36,820 nucleotides of DNA from Ignavibacteriales bacterium (GTDB taxonomy: Bacteria > Bacteroidota > Ignavibacteria > UBA10030). The notes under the pieces are model-generated. The model had not been told where the DNA came from. It did not search any database and was given only the letters and a program-made list of their open reading frames with translations. The stretch is from NCBI GenBank assembly GCA_026390585.1, contig JAPLFP010000166.1, forward strand, positions 1 to 36,820. The letters run 5' to 3'. The position numbers were made by a program, and so were the translations under genes. Of the stretch, positions 12,418-26,403 are shown one piece after another. Within the stretch, counting starts at the first letter, position 1; each line of letters begins with the position of its first letter.

Positions 12418-15400
12418 CTATGTTGACAACCGTACCTCTTTTCTTGAATAGCCGGTTGCTTGATTCTCAGGGAAAACGACAGACATCGTGATATATTCTC
12501 CGTCTCTGGCAAGGGGGACTGCGCCATCGAAGTGGTTCACGGTCCCTGACGGATCAAACACATCAAGCAAATACTCTGTGCCCGAGCTTCCTTCGACGGT
12601 AACCGAATAGGTTTGTTGCTGCCATCGCTCATTGACGATTCGCAACCCCTTCGATTCTCCTCCTCTCACGAACTGTGGCCGCGGCGGAACGACACTCACT
12701 CCGTTCGAGTGTCTAAATCGTATTTGAAGATGTGATTTCAGGGGCGCGTGGACCTTTGGGGTGGATTCATACTTGTCAACTGTTTTGTCCCAGGCCGTTC
12801 GTTTTCCATTGATCCATATCTCCTGAATGCGGGTACCAAGAGGAAACATGGGTTGCAGATTCAGTTGCACGGTACGTGACTGTTTCGATTTGCGCGGTGA
12901 TGCGATCGAGAAGGAGAACGTGGTCTCTCCAATCCTTCGCTTCACCTTCATTGTTACTCTTTGGTTGGCAAGGCGAATATTCCGCACTTCCAACTCCTTC
13001 CACCGCGGTGGTAAATATGGCTTCATTTCGATAGAACGAGTACGCACATCCGTCTTCAATCCCAACATCCCTTCAATTGCCGGCTGCAGAATCATGGTGC
13101 CTGACCAACCCTGATGTGGGCAGACGCCGGCCGGCTGGAATCGAACCCCGTGGAGAACTTCCTCCACGCATCCAGCCGAGAACTGATCAAAGAGCAGTGC
13201 ATTGCTCAAGAGGTGACCAAAACCCTGGAGCGGTCGACGCAAGCGAAACTCCGCCAACGATGTCCACCCCGTGAAGAGCGGCCAAATACTCCCGTAGTGA
13301 TACCCAGTGGGTTCAAACAACACATCGTCTTTGCCAACGATACGAACGCCCCAATCAGCCGAGAATTTGTCGCTGGCGTACTCGGAAAGACTGAACCGCG
13401 AGAATTCCTTTTCTGCACAATCAAAATACATCCCGACAGCCGGTAAGACAGTTTTCTCAGATCGAAATGACCCATCGCGGTTCTTCGCGAAACTGTAGAA
13501 ACCTGTCTCCTCATTTCGAAAATCCTTATGCAGAATTGACCTGACCATGCTCGCTTCGCGATTCCACTTTGAAGCTATGCGATGTTCATTCAAGGCCTTT
13601 GCGATGTAGGCGACCTCTGTGAGAGCCTGGGCCCAACAAGATGCGAGATAGTGTTCCGCGTGAGCGGGGAATAGTCTTCCGCCTTCAAGCCAACCATGCC
13701 CCGCAATTGTGTTTTCTATGAGATGATCACCGTCTGTATCAGTTGATAGGCAGTACGCCAGAGCATTCTTGAGACTTTGAAACTGCTTTCGCGCAAAAGG
13801 AACATCTCCACTAGCTCGGAGGTACTTGCCAAAGACCACAAGATAGAGCGGAGTCGAATCCGCTGCATCAAAGTGAGCATGACCACTCGTGGTCATTTCG
13901 TGAAGGATCTTCCCACTGATATCCTGATGACGCCCGAGGAATTCCAAGACAGATCGTACCTTTTCGAAATCTCCATAATCGAGTGCGGCCATGCATGTCC
14001 AGGCACTGTCGCGTCCGAAATACCAAGCATAGCCTGGGCGGCCGCTCACTTTTTGCCCTCCGTCCCAACCTGCGGAGCTCAGACCATATCCGGCGAGGAA
14101 GGAGGATCCTAGTCCTGGAGTCTCAGCGAAGAGCTTGTCCGTGCCAGCGATAGACCAGCGGTATGACCTGTTGAACTCCTCATCGGGAGTCACGAGTTGC
14201 GTCGTGGTGCCGAGCAAGAGCTTGAAGTGTCGTACCTGTTCTGCGAAGAGTCTTGCTATGTTCTTCGTCGCTAGGCGATAAGAGCGAAGCGCCTCTTCCA
14301 TCGCGACTCCTGAACCGGCGAAAACAAACGCGCATTGTCTGGTTTTCGGGGGAAGAGTCACTCTCATCGCACAGCAGACCTGGATTTCATTGGTGGGAAT
14401 GCCAGTGAGATGATCATCTCGGTTGTCAATCTCCGAGAACTGGCCGACAAGGTGTTCCGTCGGCGGACAGGATGAACCGAGAACGGCGGCGTTCTTTCCT
14501 GTGCCGTCGGTGACGAGCGCACAGCGTAATCCCGGATCCCAGGCAAATCTGAGTGAGCCAGTTGCTTGCTCACTTAGAGGCCACATCAGCCGGAGATCCA
14601 CCTGAGCGGTTACGACAATTTGGATTTGCTGATCCGACTCCACTTCATAATGGAGAATCCCGGCAGGCAATTTGACCGCTGTATAGATGACCTCCTCAAT
14701 CACTGCGCTTTCACACTCGTAACGTCGAGTGAGAGATTCCGGCCGGACGGTGATCGTAGAATTGAGTTCGCTCAACCAATGCCATTGACCATCTCCGACT
14801 TTGAAGCCGGTCCGGATGTTCTTGAATATTCTTGTTGGATGCGACCAGACCTCCGCTATGCCGCCACGTTCCTTGCCCATGACAAGGAGCCTCCGGCCTG
14901 ACAGGTCGAAGAACTGATCCTCTTCGATGCTGGAAGGAACATAGCGGTTGATCTCCAGGCTATTCGAAATGGTTGGAAGACTTGTCCTGATCCTGCCAAG
15001 TGGCTTGCTGAAGTGTTCAAATGGGGCGACACTGGGCGTGTCGAAATTCCAATGCCACGATCCATCCGAGTTCTGATGAGAATGGGGCTTTCCGCCTAGA
15101 TAGCGCAGACAGTTTAGGGTAAGCCGCTCAAGATGCGATCGAAACCGTTGAGTTATGTCGGAGAAGTAGAAATGAGAACCAATGGTCAGTATCCGTCCTC
15201 TACCCAGTTCATATTCCAACATGATCCGGCGATGCTCATTCAACTTGATATACAACTTCTCGACTGCAACGATCTTTCCTGAATTAGGGAGAACATCGTG
15301 GTAGTAGCATGCTGAATAGGAGTCACCAACCCTTGGCGCCCAAGTGTAGACTCCGCCAAAGAATCCTGCAAGCACGGGATGACGATTGAATCCTCCAAAG

Positions 15401-15783
15401 CCCCTGATATCGGGGCATCCATCGGCCCAAGAGTTTTCAGACCACTCGCCACGAATGACCACGTTCGGCCGAACTTCTTCGAGGCCGAGGCCCACAACGA
15501 ACTGAGATGCAAGCAGAGAAAGCAGACAAGATCCTCCCCCTGAAACGTAAATCTTGAACGCTTCCACAATTCGTGGGTTGATCTGCGTTGCTTCAGGAAA
15601 CTCTGCATCACAATGCCACCAGACCACATTGTACGAAGCTAAGACGGAAGGTTTGGCAGTGACTTGATCGAGAGTGAGTCTTCGCGCCTTCATTCCCCGT
15701 TCCTTCGCAAGGAAGTTCCAGGCTTGGAGTTCTTCGGAAGTGAGCGGTCGGCTTTTCGGTATGAGGAATGCTACTCGCGTCAT
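12418..15783 (-). CDS. Large glycosidase: N-terminal GATase1-like domain plus six-hairpin (amylo-alpha-1,6-glucosidase/GDE-C-like) catalytic domain
   Basis: N-term 'MTRVAFLIPKSRPLTSEELQAWNFLA...YNVVWWHC...FKIYVSGGGSCLLSLLASQFVVGLGLEE...GRGRILTIGSHFYF'; C-term (alpha/alpha)6-type 'GRPGYAWYFGRDSAWTCMAALDYGDF', 'GHGWLEGG', 'YHYGSIWPLFTGW', 'HQGWSGTMILQPAIEGMLGL'. Confidence 0.8.
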   Translation of the reverse strand: MTRVAFLIPKSRPLTSEELQAWNFLAKERGMKARRLTLDQVTAKPSVLASYNVVWWHCDAEFPEATQINPRIVEAFKIYVSGGGSCLLSLLASQFVVGLGLEEVRPNVVIRGEWSENSWADGCPDIRGFGGFNRHPVLAGFFGGVYTWAPRVGDSYSACYYHDVLPNSGKIVAVEKLYIKLNEHRRIMLEYELGRGRILTIGSHFYFSDITQRFRSHLERLTLNCLRYLGGKPHSHQNSDGSWHWNFDTPSVAPFEHFSKPLGRIRTSLPTISNSLEINRYVPSSIEEDQFFDLSGRRLLVMGKERGGIAEVWSHPTRIFKNIRTGFKVGDGQWHWLSELNSTITVRPESLTRRYECESAVIEEVIYTAVKLPAGILHYEVESDQQIQIVVTAQVDLRLMWPLSEQATGSLRFAWDPGLRCALVTDGTGKNAAVLGSSCPPTEHLVGQFSEIDNRDDHLTGIPTNEIQVCCAMRVTLPPKTRQCAFVFAGSGVAMEEALRSYRLATKNIARLFAEQVRHFKLLLGTTTQLVTPDEEFNRSYRWSIAGTDKLFAETPGLGSSFLAGYGLSSAGWDGGQKVSGRPGYAWYFGRDSAWTCMAALDYGDFEKVRSVLEFLGRHQDISGKILHEMTTSGHAHFDAADSTPLYLVVFGKYLRASGDVPFARKQFQSLKNALAYCLSTDTDGDHLIENTIAGHGWLEGGRLFPAHAEHYLASCWAQALTEVAYIAKALNEHRIASKWNREASMVRSILHKDFRNEETGFYSFAKNRDGSFRSEKTVLPAVGMYFDCAEKEFSRFSLSEYASDKFSADWGVRIVGKDDVLFEPTGYHYGSIWPLFTGWTSLAEFRLRRPLQGFGHLLSNALLFDQFSAGCVEEVLHGVRFQPAGVCPHQGWSGTMILQPAIEGMLGLKTDVRTRSIEMKPYLPPRWKELEVRNIRLANQRVTMKVKRRIGETTFSFSIASPRKSKQSRTVQLNLQPMFPLGTRIQEIWINGKRTAWDKTVDKYESTPKVHAPLKSHLQIRFRHSNGVSVVPPRPQFVRGGESKGLRIVNERWQQQTYSVTVEGSSGTEYLLDVFDPSGTVNHFDGAVPLARDGEYITMSVVFPENQATGYSRKEVRLST

Positions 15784-18687: not shown

Positions 18688-20938
18688 CTAGATCTGAATG
18701 CTAATAGGCTTACCCAGAACACTCTCTGCATGGTGTTCACCATCGAGCCAGACGACAAAGCGCGTGTTATCTATTTTTACTTTGAGGCGGCGCCCACGAA
18801 TAAGGACATTGTCGATCAAGACCGCTTTCACACCGAAGGGGAACGGATCAATGACGACACAGAATTCCGCAGGTCTGATCCCGCAGAGATACTTGATGAT
18901 GAGGTCGTTGACCCAGGAATGTTGATAGTCATCGATCCCCCGATACACGCTTGGCGTTCCGGTGAACGGGTGATAATGCTCGAAACAGTTTGGCCGGCCA
19001 GAGTCGTGATCGAAAAACATCATTTTGACATACTTCGTCATGAAGACAGCCGCCTTGTTGCGCAAAGCACTGTCTTTCATACTGATGGCAGATGAAGCGA
19101 GTGCCTCCGCGATGTGACTGTTCGTCATCGGCCAAACGCGTCCGTTCCATGGACAGTTCATGCGTTTCCCTTTCCATTCCGGCTCCGCACAGAAGAACTC
19201 ATCATCGGCACTTGAAGAGGGAATGGGAAAAGGTGTCCAGAACTCTTTCTTATTCAGGAGATGCCTTTTCAAGCCGCGACCGTGGCTCTTCTCAACGATA
19301 TCAGTAAAGTACGGATAGAAACAAGTGGCGGCTTTAATGTTGGTGCGCTCTCCTGAAGCGGGATTAACATCAAAGAACATTTCTTCTTTCGGATCCCACA
19401 TTTTCTCAAGTACCGCTGTCTTGATCTTCTGTGATTCAATCTTCCACAGGTCTGCGTCATCATTCTTTCCAAGCTTTTCGGCGATCGTACATAGTGCTTG
19501 TTTCAGTCTGTAGACGTAGACGGTAACGTCGACTCCTTTCAGCCGAAACACCTCGCCCCAATTGTCCTGGTCTGCCTTGGGATTGACCGCAATGTAGCGA
19601 TGCATGAACTCTTGGCCAGTCTCATAGTGATTGTCAATGTCGTACAATCCGCTGACTTCTTCGTCACGCTCCCGGTCGAAGTATCCGACGTACTTCTTCA
19701 AACCATCGTAGACTTCTTCGAGGTAACTATGCAAAGGGTGAATCAAATCCAACTGTAGCAGTGCGTTGCCCCAATCGGCATGGTAGAACATCTCCTGGCG
19801 GAAGTAGTTCATGTCGATGTACCCGCGAAACCCTCCGTCGTCACGTTGATTATCCAGAAATGTCAGAAGACTCCCTTGGGCGAGATCCGGCTCATGCATC
19901 CAGCGATTCTCGAGCATGTGACATGGTGCGCTGTAGGAGATCGGCGCGCGGAAATATCCGATTCCTTCGCACACAAAAGGCCGTTTGTAGTTGCCTTCGC
20001 TTCCATACTGTGTGTTGAGTCTGAGTCCGAACCAGCGATACCAATAGTACCGGTTGAAGAATCGATCTGAGCACTCGAAAGATGGGACCGAACTGAAGTG
20101 GTCGTTCCAGTTCATCCGGCTTAAGTCGATGGGATTTGGCTGCTGGAGAGCCACGCGCAGACTATTCAGAGTTTCTTCAGCTGCGGAGGAGGCGGCAAAT
20201 CCCACAGCGACCTGTGTCGATTGACCTGGTCCAACGGAAATGGGCGAGTGCAAAGCCATATAGACCAGACCTTCATGGGTCACGCCATCAAGTTGCTTCT
20301 TGTTCCCGAGGCCTGTAGAAGTGAACTTCTCGAACCACGGCGTTTGTCTCCAATCAGGGCGAAGCGAAGTCTTCTCACCAAGATTCAGGCCGAAGGATCG
20401 CGATGGACGATTGAGAGAATGCGCAAGCGATTTCAACATGTGGATTGACCGAAGGGCGAAGGAGCTTGTGAAATGAAACTGTCCCTTTAGAATGTTCGAT
20501 GTCCGACAGCCACACGGATTCTTTCGAAGGGAAGTGCTCCTGCGTTGTCCAAGCCACGAAATGGATGCGGACCTTTTTCTTTGTCGGATTATTCACTTCA
20601 ACAACAGACAGAGCCACATCATTCGGAAGAATTGAGCGGCGCTCTGTCAGTCGCAATCGCGTTTTCGTGCCGCAGACCGTGCCTTCGAATTCTTGTGTGA
20701 GGCACGAAGGGTCCCAGCGACGCCTGAGGAATCTCAGCTTGATCTCTCGTCCGACCTCATCAAGAACGGTCCATGTGAAGAGCGGCTTCAGTTCATAGTT
20801 ATAGTAGTGCGCCTCATCCCAAAATCCCGGGGTATCGAGGTGAAGGGGGAAGGGCGGAGCCCAAAGAAGCCGATTGCCGCCTCCGAGGTACCACTTGTCC
20901 TCGCGAGAGAGGAGATGAAGGATGTCTTTGTTTTTCAT
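18688..20938 (-). pseudogene. MGH1-like/GH63-like glucosidase, split by an apparent frameshift in 20375-20439
   Basis: N-term part from ATG 20938 (MKNKDILHLLSREDKWYLGGGNRLLWAPPFPLHLDTPGFWDEAHYYN...) in one frame ends at 20375. The C-term part (18688..20439) in the other frame carries the catalytic region ('WYRWFGLRLNTQYG', 'FEHYHPFTGTPSVYRGIDDYQHSWVNDLIIKYLCGI'). Confidence 0.75.
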
Positions 20939-20970
20939 AGATGGATCCTCCTGCAATTGGAATGAGGACC

Positions 20971-21789
20971 TTACCCCTTGAGGCCTGTCATCGTAATGCC
21001 TTTGACGAAGTACTTCTGTGCAAACATGAAGACGATGACGATCGGGAGCATGACAACCACGGCTGCCGCCATCTGGTGTGGCCAATCTGTTGTATAGAGA
21101 TTGCTGAAGGACGCGATGCCAACCTCGACCGTCCGCATATCGACCCTGTTTGTCACGATCAGAGGCCAGAGAAAGTCTTTCCAGCTCCCCATAAACGCGA
21201 AAATTGCGAGCGTCGCAAGCGCCGGTTTGGAGAGTGGTAGGATGACTTTAAGAAAGATGGTGAACTCCGAAGCGCCATCGACGCGGGCCGCATCCTCAAG
21301 CTCTTTGGGTATCGTGAGGAAGAACTGTCGAAGAAGGAAAATGCCCCAGACACTTGAGACCGTCGGCGTGAAAAGTGCCCAATAGGTGTTCATCCATCCA
21401 AACGTTGTGATGATCAGGAAGGCTGGGATGATCGTGACGATTGCGGGAATCATCATCGTGCCGAGATACAGCGCAAAGATCTTTTCACGTCCCCGAAATT
21501 GGATTCGTGCAAAGGCATACGCTGCCATTGAGCAGAACGTGAGCTGGCCGAGAACAGATGCAGCTGCAACGATCAGAGAATTCAGAAAGAATCTCCCAAA
21601 CGGTTGCAGCGTCATCGCTTCTCTGAAGTTGTCCCATTTCCAAACAGCGGGAATGAACTTCGGGGGGAACTGGTAGACTTCGAGCTCATCCATGAGCGAA
21701 GTACTGATCATCCACAAGAATGGAATGAGCATGGACGCGGCAATCGCGATCAAACCCAGGTACAAGAATATCTTGCCTGCGCGCTTCAT
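20971..21789 (-). CDS. Carbohydrate ABC transporter permease, MalG/CUT1 type
   Basis: EAA-like loop 'PKELEDAARVDGASEFTIFLKVILPLSKPALATLAIFAFMGSWKDFLWPLIV'; C-term 'FAQKYFVKGITMTGLKG' is typical of MalG-like proteins. Confidence 0.95.
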   Translation of the reverse strand: MKRAGKIFLYLGLIAIAASMLIPFLWMISTSLMDELEVYQFPPKFIPAVWKWDNFREAMTLQPFGRFFLNSLIVAAASVLGQLTFCSMAAYAFARIQFRGREKIFALYLGTMMIPAIVTIIPAFLIITTFGWMNTYWALFTPTVSSVWGIFLLRQFFLTIPKELEDAARVDGASEFTIFLKVILPLSKPALATLAIFAFMGSWKDFLWPLIVTNRVDMRTVEVGIASFSNLYTTDWPHQMAAAVVVMLPIVIVFMFAQKYFVKGITMTGLKG

Positions 21790-21795
21790 GAATGA

Positions 21796-22848
21796 TCAAT
21801 TCTGTCGGGATTGCTGGAGCTGTTTCCAAACATCAGGATCTTCATGCCCCAGTCGCCACACCGAGATTCCACGAAAACGATATTTCTTGACCAGCGCCAT
21901 CTTGGCAGTGAACGATCGAGCATCCTCAAGGTACAGGTACTCGTTCAGCCCCTCGTTGCTGTAGAATGTATAGTAGACCTTCTCCCGATCATCCCACTGC
22001 CAGGATGCTCCAGATCGTTCTGCGATCCCTTTGGCTTCTTTGTAGTCCAGTGTGCGACCCCACGCGAGAGGTTTGCCATTCTGATAGGCGGCCTGCCAAT
22101 GATGTGAATAAAACGGCAGACCAAGCGAAATCTTCGAGGTCGGCACACCTTGGGACACGAACTGAATGGCTGCCTCCATCCATGGTATCCCTGCAACGGG
22201 ACCTGGAGGAGTCCGAGGGGTGTGTTGGGAATAGGTCATAAGCGAGACAAAATCCCCGATTTCACCGAGCGCTTTGTAGTCGTATACACCACTCCAGTTT
22301 TCGAAGTTCCATCGGTGATATTCCGTCGGACCAGCGTTGTCACTTGATCGGGGAACAACGGCAATGCTGATACCAAAGCCGTTTGCGTGCAAGAGGGAAG
22401 CAGCCTGTCGATAAAACTCTGTGAAAAGTTCTTTGTCCTTTACGTGGATGTTCTCGTAATCGAATTGGATGCCGTAGTATTTGTTTTCCCGGCATAGACG
22501 AAGCATGGTGGAAACTGCCCTGATTCTCGCTAGCGAATCGTGAAGGAAAGAGTGGAATGCAGGTTGGTCAAAGCCCGTGTTCATTACCAGTGGCATGACT
22601 TTGACACCATTTCTCCTCGAGAGATCGAGAACACGACTATCGACAGAACCCGCGATGATTCCATGTTCATCCATCTTATATGATTGCGGACCGACAATGT
22701 CGATACTCTTAATGTTCGCTTTGAAGCTCAAGAAACAATCCTCATTGTCGATAGCATAGAAGAGCGTCTCAGTCCGCTGTGCTAACGCAACCGTCGCCGA
22801 CAGAAGGACGAGGATACAGGCAGCCGAGATACATCGTAGAGAGAACAT
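21796..22848 (-). CDS. GH18-like glycoside hydrolase (YaaH/SleL-like), secreted
   Basis: Signal peptide 'MFSLRCISAACILVLLSATVALAQ'; 'YYGIQFDYENI' (DxE of GH18), 'GDFVSLMTYSQHTPRTPPGPVAGIPWMEAAIQFV', 'KISLGLPFYSHHW', 'FRGISVWRLGHEDPDVW'. The ATG at 22848 has GGAGGT just upstream; the track start is 22863. Confidence 0.85.
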   Translation of the reverse strand: MFSLRCISAACILVLLSATVALAQRTETLFYAIDNEDCFLSFKANIKSIDIVGPQSYKMDEHGIIAGSVDSRVLDLSRRNGVKVMPLVMNTGFDQPAFHSFLHDSLARIRAVSTMLRLCRENKYYGIQFDYENIHVKDKELFTEFYRQAASLLHANGFGISIAVVPRSSDNAGPTEYHRWNFENWSGVYDYKALGEIGDFVSLMTYSQHTPRTPPGPVAGIPWMEAAIQFVSQGVPTSKISLGLPFYSHHWQAAYQNGKPLAWGRTLDYKEAKGIAERSGASWQWDDREKVYYTFYSNEGLNEYLYLEDARSFTAKMALVKKYRFRGISVWRLGHEDPDVWKQLQQSRQN

Positions 22849-22881
22849 ATGACCTCCGGACATTCTATACGGATGAGATGC

Positions 22882-23991
22882 TCAATCGCCGAAGCAAATC
22901 CCCAAGTCTCGACCCGTGCTCATTGTGTCGCAATCAAGCGGAACGGATTTCATCCGGCGTGTTGCCTGGTCCAACGGGACATATCGCACGGTAGGGGGAT
23001 CTAAAGCAACCATAACTCCCGACTTTCCTTCATCGAGCGCACGAATCGCCGCAGCACCGAACCGGAGCGATATGAGTCGGTCGAATGTCGTCGGTGTCCC
23101 ACCCCGCAGCAGATGTCCGAGGACGACGCAGCGGGTTTCCCGTCCCGTTGCTTGCTGGATTTCCTCTGCCACACGCTCCCCGGCGCCGCCCAGCCGTTCG
23201 GCTCGTCCCAGTTCTTTGGAGACCACGGAAAGGGAGCCCCCTTTCGGTTTGGCGCCTTCTGCAACGACCACGATCGCGAATTTCCGTCCGCCTGTGAACC
23301 GCTCCTCGATCTTCTTGGCCACACTTCGGATATCGTATGGGATCTCAGGGATCAGGATCGCATCAGCTGTCCCGGAGATGCCGCTGTTCAAAGCAATCCA
23401 TCCGGCGTACCGTCCCATGACCTCCACCACCATAACACGCCGATGTGCCTCTGCGGTGGAGTGGAGTCTATCGATGCACATGGTGGCAAAGGAGACGGCC
23501 GTGTCAAAACCGAATGTAATGACCGTCTTCTCGAGATCGTTGTCGATCGTCTTGGGAACACCAACCACTTTGATTCCTTTTTGCGCGATGACGTTGGCAA
23601 TTGTCAATGAACCGTCTCCTCCAACTGCGACGAGAGCGTCAATCTTCTCGCGTTTGAACGCTTTTATCAATTCGTCCGAACGGTCCTTCTCGTACATCTT
23701 GCCGTCTTTGCCTTTGGTTGGGTACTTGAGCGGGTTCCCTTTGTTCGTCGTCCCGAGAATGGTTCCGCCCAGATGCGTAATGCCTCTCACCGCGGCACGC
23801 GTCAGAGGTATAAGTCCCCCTTCGGGGTACTCATCAGGCATCATTAATCCATTGTATCCGTCCCTGATGCCAACGCACTCCCACCCTCGGTCCACGGCTG
23901 CAATCGTTGCTGCACGAATCACCGCGTTGAGTCCAGGAGCGTCTCCGCCGCCGGTGTTGATAGCGATTTTCTTGATGCCTTTGGTTGCCAT
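22882..23991 (-). CDS. 6-phosphofructokinase (PFKA family, Gly104/Lys124-type)
   Basis: 'IAINTGGGDAPGLNAVIRAAT', 'DALVAVGGDGSLTIAN', 'VVGVPKTIDNDLEKT', 'FGFDTAVSFATMCIDRLHSTAEAHRRVMVVEVMGRYAGWIAL'. Confidence 0.95.
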   Translation of the reverse strand: MATKGIKKIAINTGGGDAPGLNAVIRAATIAAVDRGWECVGIRDGYNGLMMPDEYPEGGLIPLTRAAVRGITHLGGTILGTTNKGNPLKYPTKGKDGKMYEKDRSDELIKAFKREKIDALVAVGGDGSLTIANVIAQKGIKVVGVPKTIDNDLEKTVITFGFDTAVSFATMCIDRLHSTAEAHRRVMVVEVMGRYAGWIALNSGISGTADAILIPEIPYDIRSVAKKIEERFTGGRKFAIVVVAEGAKPKGGSLSVVSKELGRAERLGGAGERVAEEIQQATGRETRCVVLGHLLRGGTPTTFDRLISLRFGAAAIRALDEGKSGVMVALDPPTVRYVPLDQATRRMKSVPLDCDTMSTGRDLGICFGD

Positions 23992-24015: not shown

Positions 24016-26403
24016 TCATCCGTATTCGACTTGTCTTCCCAGTAGTCTGAATTGAATCCATGTTGCGATGACAATGATAACGAAGAGCACCCAGGACATT
24101 GCCGAAGCGTACCCCATTCGAAGTTGTTCCCAGGCCGATTGATAGATGTGATAGACGATGACATCAGTACTCCCGACAGGACCTCCGGCAGTCATGACAT
24201 AGATTGAAGTGAAGACCTGAAATGAACCAATCAGTGATGTCGTGAGAATAAAGAACGTCGTCGGTTTCAGCAAGGGGAGAGTGATATGCCAGAATCGATT
24301 CCAACTCCCTGAGCCGTCGATCCGGGCTGCATCGTGCAATTCTTCCGGTATCCCCTGCAATCCAGCAAGGAAAATGATCATTTGATAACCAAGTCCCAGC
24401 CAAATGGAAAAAATGATAATAGATACCATTGCGGTGCTTGTGGAGTTCAGCCATGCCGACGGCCCAAGGCCGACAAGCTGAAGGAGAACATTCGCCACCC
24501 CAAACGTCGGATGATAAATCCACATCCACACGAGGGCAATTGCGACGAAGGAAGTAACGCTTGGCAAGAAATACAGCGCCCGGAGGAAGGCAATCCCCTT
24601 GAATCGATGGTTCATCATGAGCGCAACGGCCAGAGAGAGGACCATGCCCACCGGGACGTTGAGAGTGTAGAGGAACGTGTTCTTCAGAGCATTCCAGAAC
24701 GAATCATCTGAAAACACTTCCCGAAAATTGGCCAGTCCGACAAATGGCTTGTCGGCCACGATGACATCCCACCGATGCAGGCTCAGGTATCCCGCAAAGA
24801 CTATGGGAGTCAGAATAAATACGGTGAGATGAAGAAGAGAAGGAGCGAGAAAGCCAATCGCCGTGCCCGTAGTTCGACGTGACTTCCCGCGAGCCCGCGC
24901 ATACAGCAAGCCGCTCGCCAGGGCAACGAGGAATGCAACGATGAGCAGGAAGCGAAGGATTTCAGAATGTTGACGGATGGGTTTGAATTCCGAGGCTTCG
25001 TGGAGTCGCGTATTCTCCAGCTGACGGTCGATCTTCGCTGCATAGCGATTCATCGTCTCGTGCATCGGCTGTCCGTTCACCAGCACCTCATCGACGGCGT
25101 CCTGCAAAGTCCATTCAACTTCGCTGAAACGCTCAATCAATGAACCCCAAGGTTGGCGGCAGGAGGGAACTTCCGCGACGAATGCGCGCTCAAATCCATG
25201 AGTATCCCGTGACACAATCTCTTCAGCAATGCTGCGGGAGGATGGTATCTCGAGGTGACGAGAGGCTCTGATTCGATTTGCTTCCTCCCCCGCCATAAAT
25301 GCAGCAAGAAGCGCCGCCTCTTTTGGGTGTGGGCTGTTCACAGGCACGCACCATCCCGATTCGTACATCACGTTGACCTTCTTCGCACCGGGACGCTGAG
25401 GTATGGGAGCGATGCCGATGTCAAGCTTGCCTTGTTCCACTAGTCTGAGTAACCGCGGCAACCGCCAATGGCCATCGATCATCATGGCGATCTTTCCATT
25501 CGCGAAAAGCTGGCTGTTGCTCCCTGTTTTCTCAGATTGGACCCAGCTTCCTGTGCCGGGTGCTACGTTCTGTATTTTTTGGAGGTCGATCAGAAACTGA
25601 AGTGCGGACTCCGTTGCACGGGAATTGAGATATCCTGTCGCCTTGGTTCCGGATGGATCAACAACATCTCCACCAGAACTCCAGACCCAGACGATCCAGA
25701 AATAATAATAATTTGTAAATGCTGTGCCGTACTGATCAATCGATCCATCACCGTCAATATCCCGCGTGAGCTTCGATGCGATGTTACGGTATTCATCCCA
25801 AGTCCAGGCAACGCCTGGAAAGGGAAGACCTGCCTCTCGAAAGAGTCGCTTGTTGTAGTACATCATCAGCGGCGTGAATCCTTTTGGAAAAGCGTAGAGG
25901 GCTGATCCTTTGCGGGCAATGTCCGTGACATTTGAAAACCACTGGGTGGTGTCAATGTTCAACTCATGGACAAAGGAGGAGAGATCGAGAAGAACTTTCT
26001 TGTTCGTGAAGGTCGGTATCAACTTTGAATCGAGGAGAAACACGTCGGGGGGCTCATCGGCGGCCAGAGCGGTGAGTATTTTTTCTTCATACTGGACGCC
26101 GGGATTAGGCTCGTAAAGGATTTCGATATTCGGACACCTGTACTTGAACGCAGCGATGGATTCTTTGTCAAGGGGCATCTCGTCAATGTCGGCCCAGTTG
26201 GTCAATCGCAATGTGACCGTGCGTTGGGCATTTGCCGTCAACGAGAACAGCAGGAGGAGAACAAAGAGCCAGGGAATGGTATTTCTCAGCGGGACATCAG
26301 ATGTGAGGGAGTGAGACACGGTTTGTTCTCGCTGATGTTGATAGCAGGGATGTTCATTATCCCACAATCGCTGCACGCTTGAGAAGGCTTCACCAGATCT
26401 CAC
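24016..26403 (-). CDS. Single-polypeptide sugar ABC importer: extracellular solute-binding domain fused to MalF/CUT1-type permease domain
   Basis: Residues ~45-470 are SBP_bac_1-like ('VTLRLTNWADIDEM...LTALAADEPPDVFLLDSKLIPTF...FPKGFTPLMMYYNKRLFREAGL...ANGKIAMMIDGHWRL'). The rest is a MalF-like permease ('GFLAPSLLHLTVFILTPIVFAGYLSLHRWD...GIPEELHDAARIDGSGSWNRFWHITLPLLKPTTFF...GGPVGSTDVIVYHIYQSAW'). The ORF is uninterrupted. GTG at 26319 is a plausible start before the signal peptide. Confidence 0.9.
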   Translation of the reverse strand: MRSGEAFSSVQRLWDNEHPCYQHQREQTVSHSLTSDVPLRNTIPWLFVLLLLFSLTANAQRTVTLRLTNWADIDEMPLDKESIAAFKYRCPNIEILYEPNPGVQYEEKILTALAADEPPDVFLLDSKLIPTFTNKKVLLDLSSFVHELNIDTTQWFSNVTDIARKGSALYAFPKGFTPLMMYYNKRLFREAGLPFPGVAWTWDEYRNIASKLTRDIDGDGSIDQYGTAFTNYYYFWIVWVWSSGGDVVDPSGTKATGYLNSRATESALQFLIDLQKIQNVAPGTGSWVQSEKTGSNSQLFANGKIAMMIDGHWRLPRLLRLVEQGKLDIGIAPIPQRPGAKKVNVMYESGWCVPVNSPHPKEAALLAAFMAGEEANRIRASRHLEIPSSRSIAEEIVSRDTHGFERAFVAEVPSCRQPWGSLIERFSEVEWTLQDAVDEVLVNGQPMHETMNRYAAKIDRQLENTRLHEASEFKPIRQHSEILRFLLIVAFLVALASGLLYARARGKSRRTTGTAIGFLAPSLLHLTVFILTPIVFAGYLSLHRWDVIVADKPFVGLANFREVFSDDSFWNALKNTFLYTLNVPVGMVLSLAVALMMNHRFKGIAFLRALYFLPSVTSFVAIALVWMWIYHPTFGVANVLLQLVGLGPSAWLNSTSTAMVSIIIFSIWLGLGYQMIIFLAGLQGIPEELHDAARIDGSGSWNRFWHITLPLLKPTTFFILTTSLIGSFQVFTSIYVMTAGGPVGSTDVIVYHIYQSAWEQLRMGYASAMSWVLFVIIVIATWIQFRLLGRQVEYG

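Follow-up and report, generated by a model that had tools for sequence, protein, structure and literature searches.

The fused gene, its domains and its partner subunits

The window analyzed here, a 36,820-nucleotide stretch of an Ignavibacteriales bacterium genome (contig JAPLFP010000166.1), carries on its minus strand an open reading frame of 795 amino acids (24016-26403 in the list of open reading frames), in which a solute-binding protein (SBP) domain precedes a MalF-type permease. The true start of the gene is likelier at 26319, because in the closest ortholog (83% identical) no start codon precedes the GTG that corresponds to residue 29. The coding sequence would then probably begin with this GTG, 28 codons inside the open reading frame, and encode 767 amino acids, and the in-frame extension from 26319 to 26403 is probably not translated. 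The first-pass annotation had described, with no strand given, a single uninterrupted protein of 795 amino acids; the frame is uninterrupted and both Pfam domains are present, but the start probably lies 28 codons further in. The features of the locus are listed in Table 1, where residue numbers of the parts refer to the 767-amino acid form; Pfam and hydropathy spans given in the text refer to the 795-amino acid form.

Table 1. Features of the fused gene, its cluster, and related loci
Feature	Position	Strand	Basis
Fused SBP-MalF coding sequence (probable start)	24016..26319	-	ORF, Pfam; start from closest ortholog; 17 orthologs
Signal peptide, residues 1-31, signal-peptidase-I type (..LTANA^Q), without lipobox cysteine	26227..26319	-	Sequence and hydropathy; predicted cleavage site
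Sugar-binding (SBP_bac_1) domain, residues 32-441	24997..26226	-	Pfam, PDB sequence matches, Foldseek, model
Linker, residues 442-451, conserved core E-F-K-P-I-R-E-H	24967..24996	-	Model boundaries; mean conservation 0.69
Extra transmembrane (anchoring) helix, residues 452-475	24895..24966	-	Hydropathy, model, absence from split homologs
MalF/UgpA-type permease, residues 479-767, six helices	24019..24885	-	BPD_transp_1, NCBIfam UgpA, PDB SugA, model
EAA loop (DAARIDG-x9-I-x-LP), residues 663-682	24274..24333	-	Sequence reading; conserved in orthologs
6-Phosphofructokinase, between fused gene and MalG	22882..23991	-	Kept in genus and at one other locus
Secreted GH18-family protein, same cluster	21796..22863	-	Kept only in genus
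Cognate MalG/UgpE-type second permease	20971..21789	-	Pfam, NCBIfam; ortholog in 15/15 fused genomes tested
MGH1-like glycoside hydrolase gene, two overlapping frames here	18688..21000	-	ORFs, Pfam, relatives
Members of the family with a twin-arginine-like signal	L043:3586-5931, L045:3485-5773, L047:3677-5944, L048:3491-5767, L096:1153-3429, L095:10371-12662
Second secreted family	L095:12770-17246 (-), L045:1217-3457, L048:1400-3439		Two copies in G038

Pfam searches with the 795-amino acid protein detected both SBP_bac_1 (1.6e-40, residues 78-376) and BPD_transp_1 (2.2e-19, residues 586-787), each far above its curated cut-off. The permease half is nearest to UgpA in NCBIfam (2.7e-43) and, among PDB sequences, to SugA of a trehalose importer (3.3e-31). 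For the SBP half, the closest solved protein by sequence is the arabino-oligosaccharide-binding AbnE (6rjy, 1.3e-34), and by fold, using Foldseek, Lmo0181 (5f7v, TMt 0.89; AbnE, TMt 0.85); identity in the structural alignments is 24% for AbnE and 20% for Lmo0181, and the substrate cannot be transferred from either to the window SBP. Among orthologs, conservation is 0.82 for the permease half, 0.75 for the SBP half, and 0.69 on average for the linker.

Besides the permease helices, hydropathy analysis revealed a segment at residues 482-500 (KD 2.59), and the same analysis placed the extra helix in 16/16 of the fused rows inspected. After this helix, the window protein has the basic loop RARGKSRR, with five Lys or Arg and no Asp or Glu; a loop rich in Lys and Arg and free of acidic residues is as expected for a cytoplasmic location under the positive-inside expectation. 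An AlphaFold model from a deep alignment is confident (mean pLDDT 92.5, pTM 0.88) and runs from the terminal helix of the SBP (419-441) through the linker (442-451, pLDDT ∼78) to the extra helix (452-475) and the permease helices; a model from a 14-sequence alignment was poor (pLDDT 52.6) and was set aside in its favor. The relative placement of SBP and permease is predicted with high confidence, yet it deserves caution, as the alignment put C-terminal portions of several split SBPs into permease columns. Pfam, hydropathy, and the model together bear out the domain order read in the first-pass annotation, i.e., signal peptide, SBP_bac_1 domain, transmembrane segment, and complete MalF permease with its EAA loop. 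The signal peptide, the positive-inside loop, and the model fit an extracytoplasmic receptor that is covalently attached in the predicted mature protein.

The MalG of the cluster has an ortholog with 71-91% identity in each of the 15 fused genomes tested, the next-best MalG reaching at most 51%, and it follows in the cluster at every locus with enough flanking sequence except in G038, where it lies ∼16 kb off. No gene of the cluster was recognized as encoding an ATPase. The genome itself encodes a single full-length UgpC/MsmX-type ATPase above the curated cut-off, on another contig (G000:C164:21409-22512), and at least one full-length UgpC-like ATPase above the cut-off is found in 15/15 fused genomes tested. 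This unlinked ATPase would serve the fused importer by MsmX-like sharing. The components expected of CUT1 are all present: SBP_bac_1, a MalF-type permease with EAA loop, MalG, and an ATPase of the UgpC/MalK/MsmX type. Separately, we note that the ATPase of the genome is apparently common to about six CUT1 permease sets.

Orthologs, split relatives and the origin of the fusion

The fusion is present in 17 distinct Ignavibacterial genomes, intact in 15 and cut by contig ends in the other two, and in a sample of the class it was found in 12/294 genomes spread across four families. No internal stop or frameshift occurs in the fused orthologs, whose identity extends down to 57-62%. Comparison of the window gene with L040 gave dN/dS values of 0.055 for the SBP, 0.076 for the junction, and 0.048 for the permease; with synonymous sites close to saturated, only the strong excess is meaningful. 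The junction is under purifying selection. Because the uninterrupted architecture recurs in 16 other genomes and the junction is under such selection, the fusion is real and conserved, and neither chance nor an assembly slip. A missed stop or frameshift joining two neighboring genes in the assembly had seemed conceivable, since the split systems of the class often have adjacent SBP and MalF genes, separated by roughly 0 to 100 bases, which a lost stop could merge, and since another gene of the window is frameshifted. The probability of such an artifact is now close to nil: it is refuted by 15 intact orthologs that share the identical frame in independent assemblies, and the junction contains a helix missing from the split genes. 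The doubts raised in the first-pass annotation, namely a defect at the domain junction and homologs that are consistently two genes, thus do not apply within this ortholog group.

At all other homologous loci examined, two distinct genes encode the SBP and the permease, often as neighbors with the SBP gene preceding that of MalF, and the other MalF-type homologs found in the genome of the window are all unfused. A C-terminal transmembrane segment was detected in 0/58 split SBPs and an additional N-terminal one in 0/61 split permeases, and the extra helix therefore arrived with the fusion. All fused rows group in a single clade in the permease tree and again in the SBP tree, with an SH-aLRT of 100 each time; these are quick trees in which the deeper branching is weak. 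Two sets of apparent fusions were discarded. Open frames of 515-842 amino acids at other MalF homologs in relatives are mechanical extensions, the SBP and permease open reading frames being separate, and one-piece tblastn matches on plasmids of Microvirga, Sinorhizobium, Rhizobium, and Aminobacter were, in those checked, adjacent separate genes read through stops. In Thermaceae, six MalF-type open reading frames of 411-504 amino acids (L063, L064, L065, L068, L069, and L071) have ∼100-200 additional residues on the N-terminal side of the permease domain, without an SBP match.

The split and fused SBPs also differ at their signal peptides. In about 30 split SBPs from the class, the hydrophobic core of the signal is closely followed by a lipobox-like cysteine (23/31 by a strict pattern, the remainder by eye), whereas in the fused SBPs the signal ends in A-Q or similar, as a rule without a lipobox cysteine; a possible exception is the fused protein of L046, and in L013 the pattern match sits within the hydrophobic core. 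From this difference, the added helix seems to take over membrane anchoring from the lipid anchor of the split SBPs. Since the fused group is one clade, the anchor swap would represent a single evolutionary event.

The proposed importer, alternative readings and known systems

We infer that the natural CUT1 SBP-MalF fusion encoded by this gene would very probably pair with MalG and the shared ATPase as a one-receptor oligosaccharide importer. In the proposed mechanism, a cleavable signal peptide would export the binding domain, and the short conserved linker and the added helix would keep the SBP attached to the N terminus of the permease. The fused subunit, the MalG of the cluster, and two copies of the shared UgpC/MsmX-type ATPase would form the importer, each translocator having one receptor and no more, attached covalently and always within docking reach. 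The added helix would perform two jobs: it would lead the chain back to the cytoplasm, the permease keeping its normal N-in topology, and it would substitute for the lipid anchor of the split SBPs in these bacteria. A receptor tethered to the MalF half-translocator had been proposed in the first-pass annotation and is favored by the domains lying in one frame, the confident model, and the dedicated MalG; the proposal that the extra helix restores permease topology likewise gains support from the positive-inside charges, the model, and the absence of the helix from split homologs. A more far-reaching version, in which the short conserved tether (E-F-K-P-I-R-E-H-S-E-I-L) would be more than a passive leash, both holding the receptor near its docking site and joining the transport cycle, and in which this clade would have traded the receptor excess usual in the sugar importers of diderm bacteria, in an independent origin, for a permanently docked one-receptor importer, is rather unlikely.

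SBP domains occur in sensors, and a histidine kinase gene adjoins the fused gene in one genome (L047:8287-9171), which would suit a membrane-spanning protein that senses or binds sugar without being part of a transporter. This is highly improbable, given that conservation is higher in the permease half (0.82) than in the SBP half (0.75), that the EAA loop is kept, that the MalG partner is always present, and that a signaling domain is absent. A somewhat better case can be made for synthesis as one chain followed by periplasmic cleavage, the SBP becoming an ordinary soluble receptor and the fusion merely ensuring co-expression: the mature SBP lacks a lipid anchor, and free SBPs are normally in excess, the free maltose-binding protein of E. 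coli being made in 30-50-fold excess (PMC9045158), which is impossible in a fusion. Cleavage, however, could not lift the ratio of SBP to permease above one and would leave the added helix without a purpose, and the linker that would be cut is both short and conserved, so that we consider this reading distinctly improbable and favor the tethered importer.

Bdellovibrio bacteriovorus already provides a published example of a natural CUT1 MalE-MalF fusion (PDB 6ffl, the title of which gives the MalE domain of this species and the molecule name a permease homologue). The study by Licht and coworkers reportedly concerns this Bdellovibrio MalE-MalF protein, in agreement with the titles of the PDB entries. 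A review (PMC7756565) states that the fusion of MalE to MalF is competent for transport, citing Licht et al. 2019 (Res Microbiol 170:1-12, doi 10.1016/j.resmic.2018.08.006). The first-pass annotation had cited fusions solely for other ABC classes; they do exist there (OpuA and GlnPQ), but the CUT1 example has also been described (6ffl, PMC7756565). Like the fused Ignavibacterial protein, Bdellovibrio MalE-MalF has a CUT1 binding domain on MalF and one receptor per heterodimeric translocator, but its SBP is of a different subfamily. Because the 6ffl binding domain is only distantly related to the window SBP (1.9e-7 over 153 residues; 33 other solved sequences score better), the Ignavibacterial fusion is likely independent of the Bdellovibrio one, as judged by the binding domain. 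One fusion event common to both and spread by gene transfer would explain the identical domain pair (MalE and MalF, going by the PDB names), and is improbable with binding domains from different subfamilies.

In OpuA, an osmolyte importer of the OTCN family, the SBD follows the TMD. The TMD of OpuA is homodimeric, with two receptors and a linker that is not conserved, whereas in the fused protein the SBP comes first, the linker is conserved, and there would be one receptor. The likeness lies in the tether: in OpuA, a close mechanical parallel, the receptor is held by an 11-residue soluble linker and an extra anchoring helix, for a local concentration estimated at 4 mM (PMC11065425); the fused protein has ∼10 residues and one helix. 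GlnPQ (amino acids) and EgtU (ergothioneine) are likewise covalent receptor-translocator fusions, but they belong to other ABC importer classes, with another domain arrangement and no CUT1 permease. The Pfam and NCBIfam matches of the fused protein are to CUT1, outside the OpuA/GlnPQ-type (OTCN, PAO) families; by analogy, it may work like these importers without belonging to them. Conversely, the canonical CUT1 systems LpqY-SugABC and UgpABCE have a related permease (SugA, UgpA) but a separate receptor (lipo)protein.

A tethered-receptor design known mainly from osmolyte and amino acid importers, and from one maltose importer, is thus both stable and conserved in a sugar importer of an entire Ignavibacteria clade. 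The split relatives in the same bacteria provide a natural comparison between a lipid-anchored receptor and one built into the translocator. For annotation, the locus is a warning that a single gene may contain two expected importer parts while the ATPase is located elsewhere.

Neighboring genes and the substrate

Apart from MalG, the only recurrent neighbor of the fused gene is an MGH1-like glycoside hydrolase; at other loci, GH26 and further genes are found. In the window, the MGH1-like gene is interrupted by a frameshift, real or a sequencing error, between ∼20414 and 20586, and it is intact (732-756 amino acids) in close relatives. The attempt to derive the substrate from neighboring genes failed, the GH18-family protein and the phosphofructokinase being mostly confined to the genus. 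The nearby glycoside hydrolases suggest that the imported substrate is an oligosaccharide.

Several other genes lie close to the fused gene. A 1121-amino acid open reading frame in the window (12418-15783, minus strand) has weak glycoside hydrolase matches (MGH1-like, GDE_C), and genes related to it are found near the fused gene in other genomes. In six genomes, a member of a conserved family of 755-781 amino acids (42-84% identical), with a twin-arginine-like signal (RRKFL/RREFL) and no Pfam domain match, is encoded upstream of the fused gene, immediately before it or almost so. The one member searched against the PDB gave no match; the protein may have an enzymatic role in preparing the glycan that is imported. 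Further upstream lies a second family of secreted proteins of 679-747 amino acids, without a clear Pfam match and with a C-terminal sorting-like tail.
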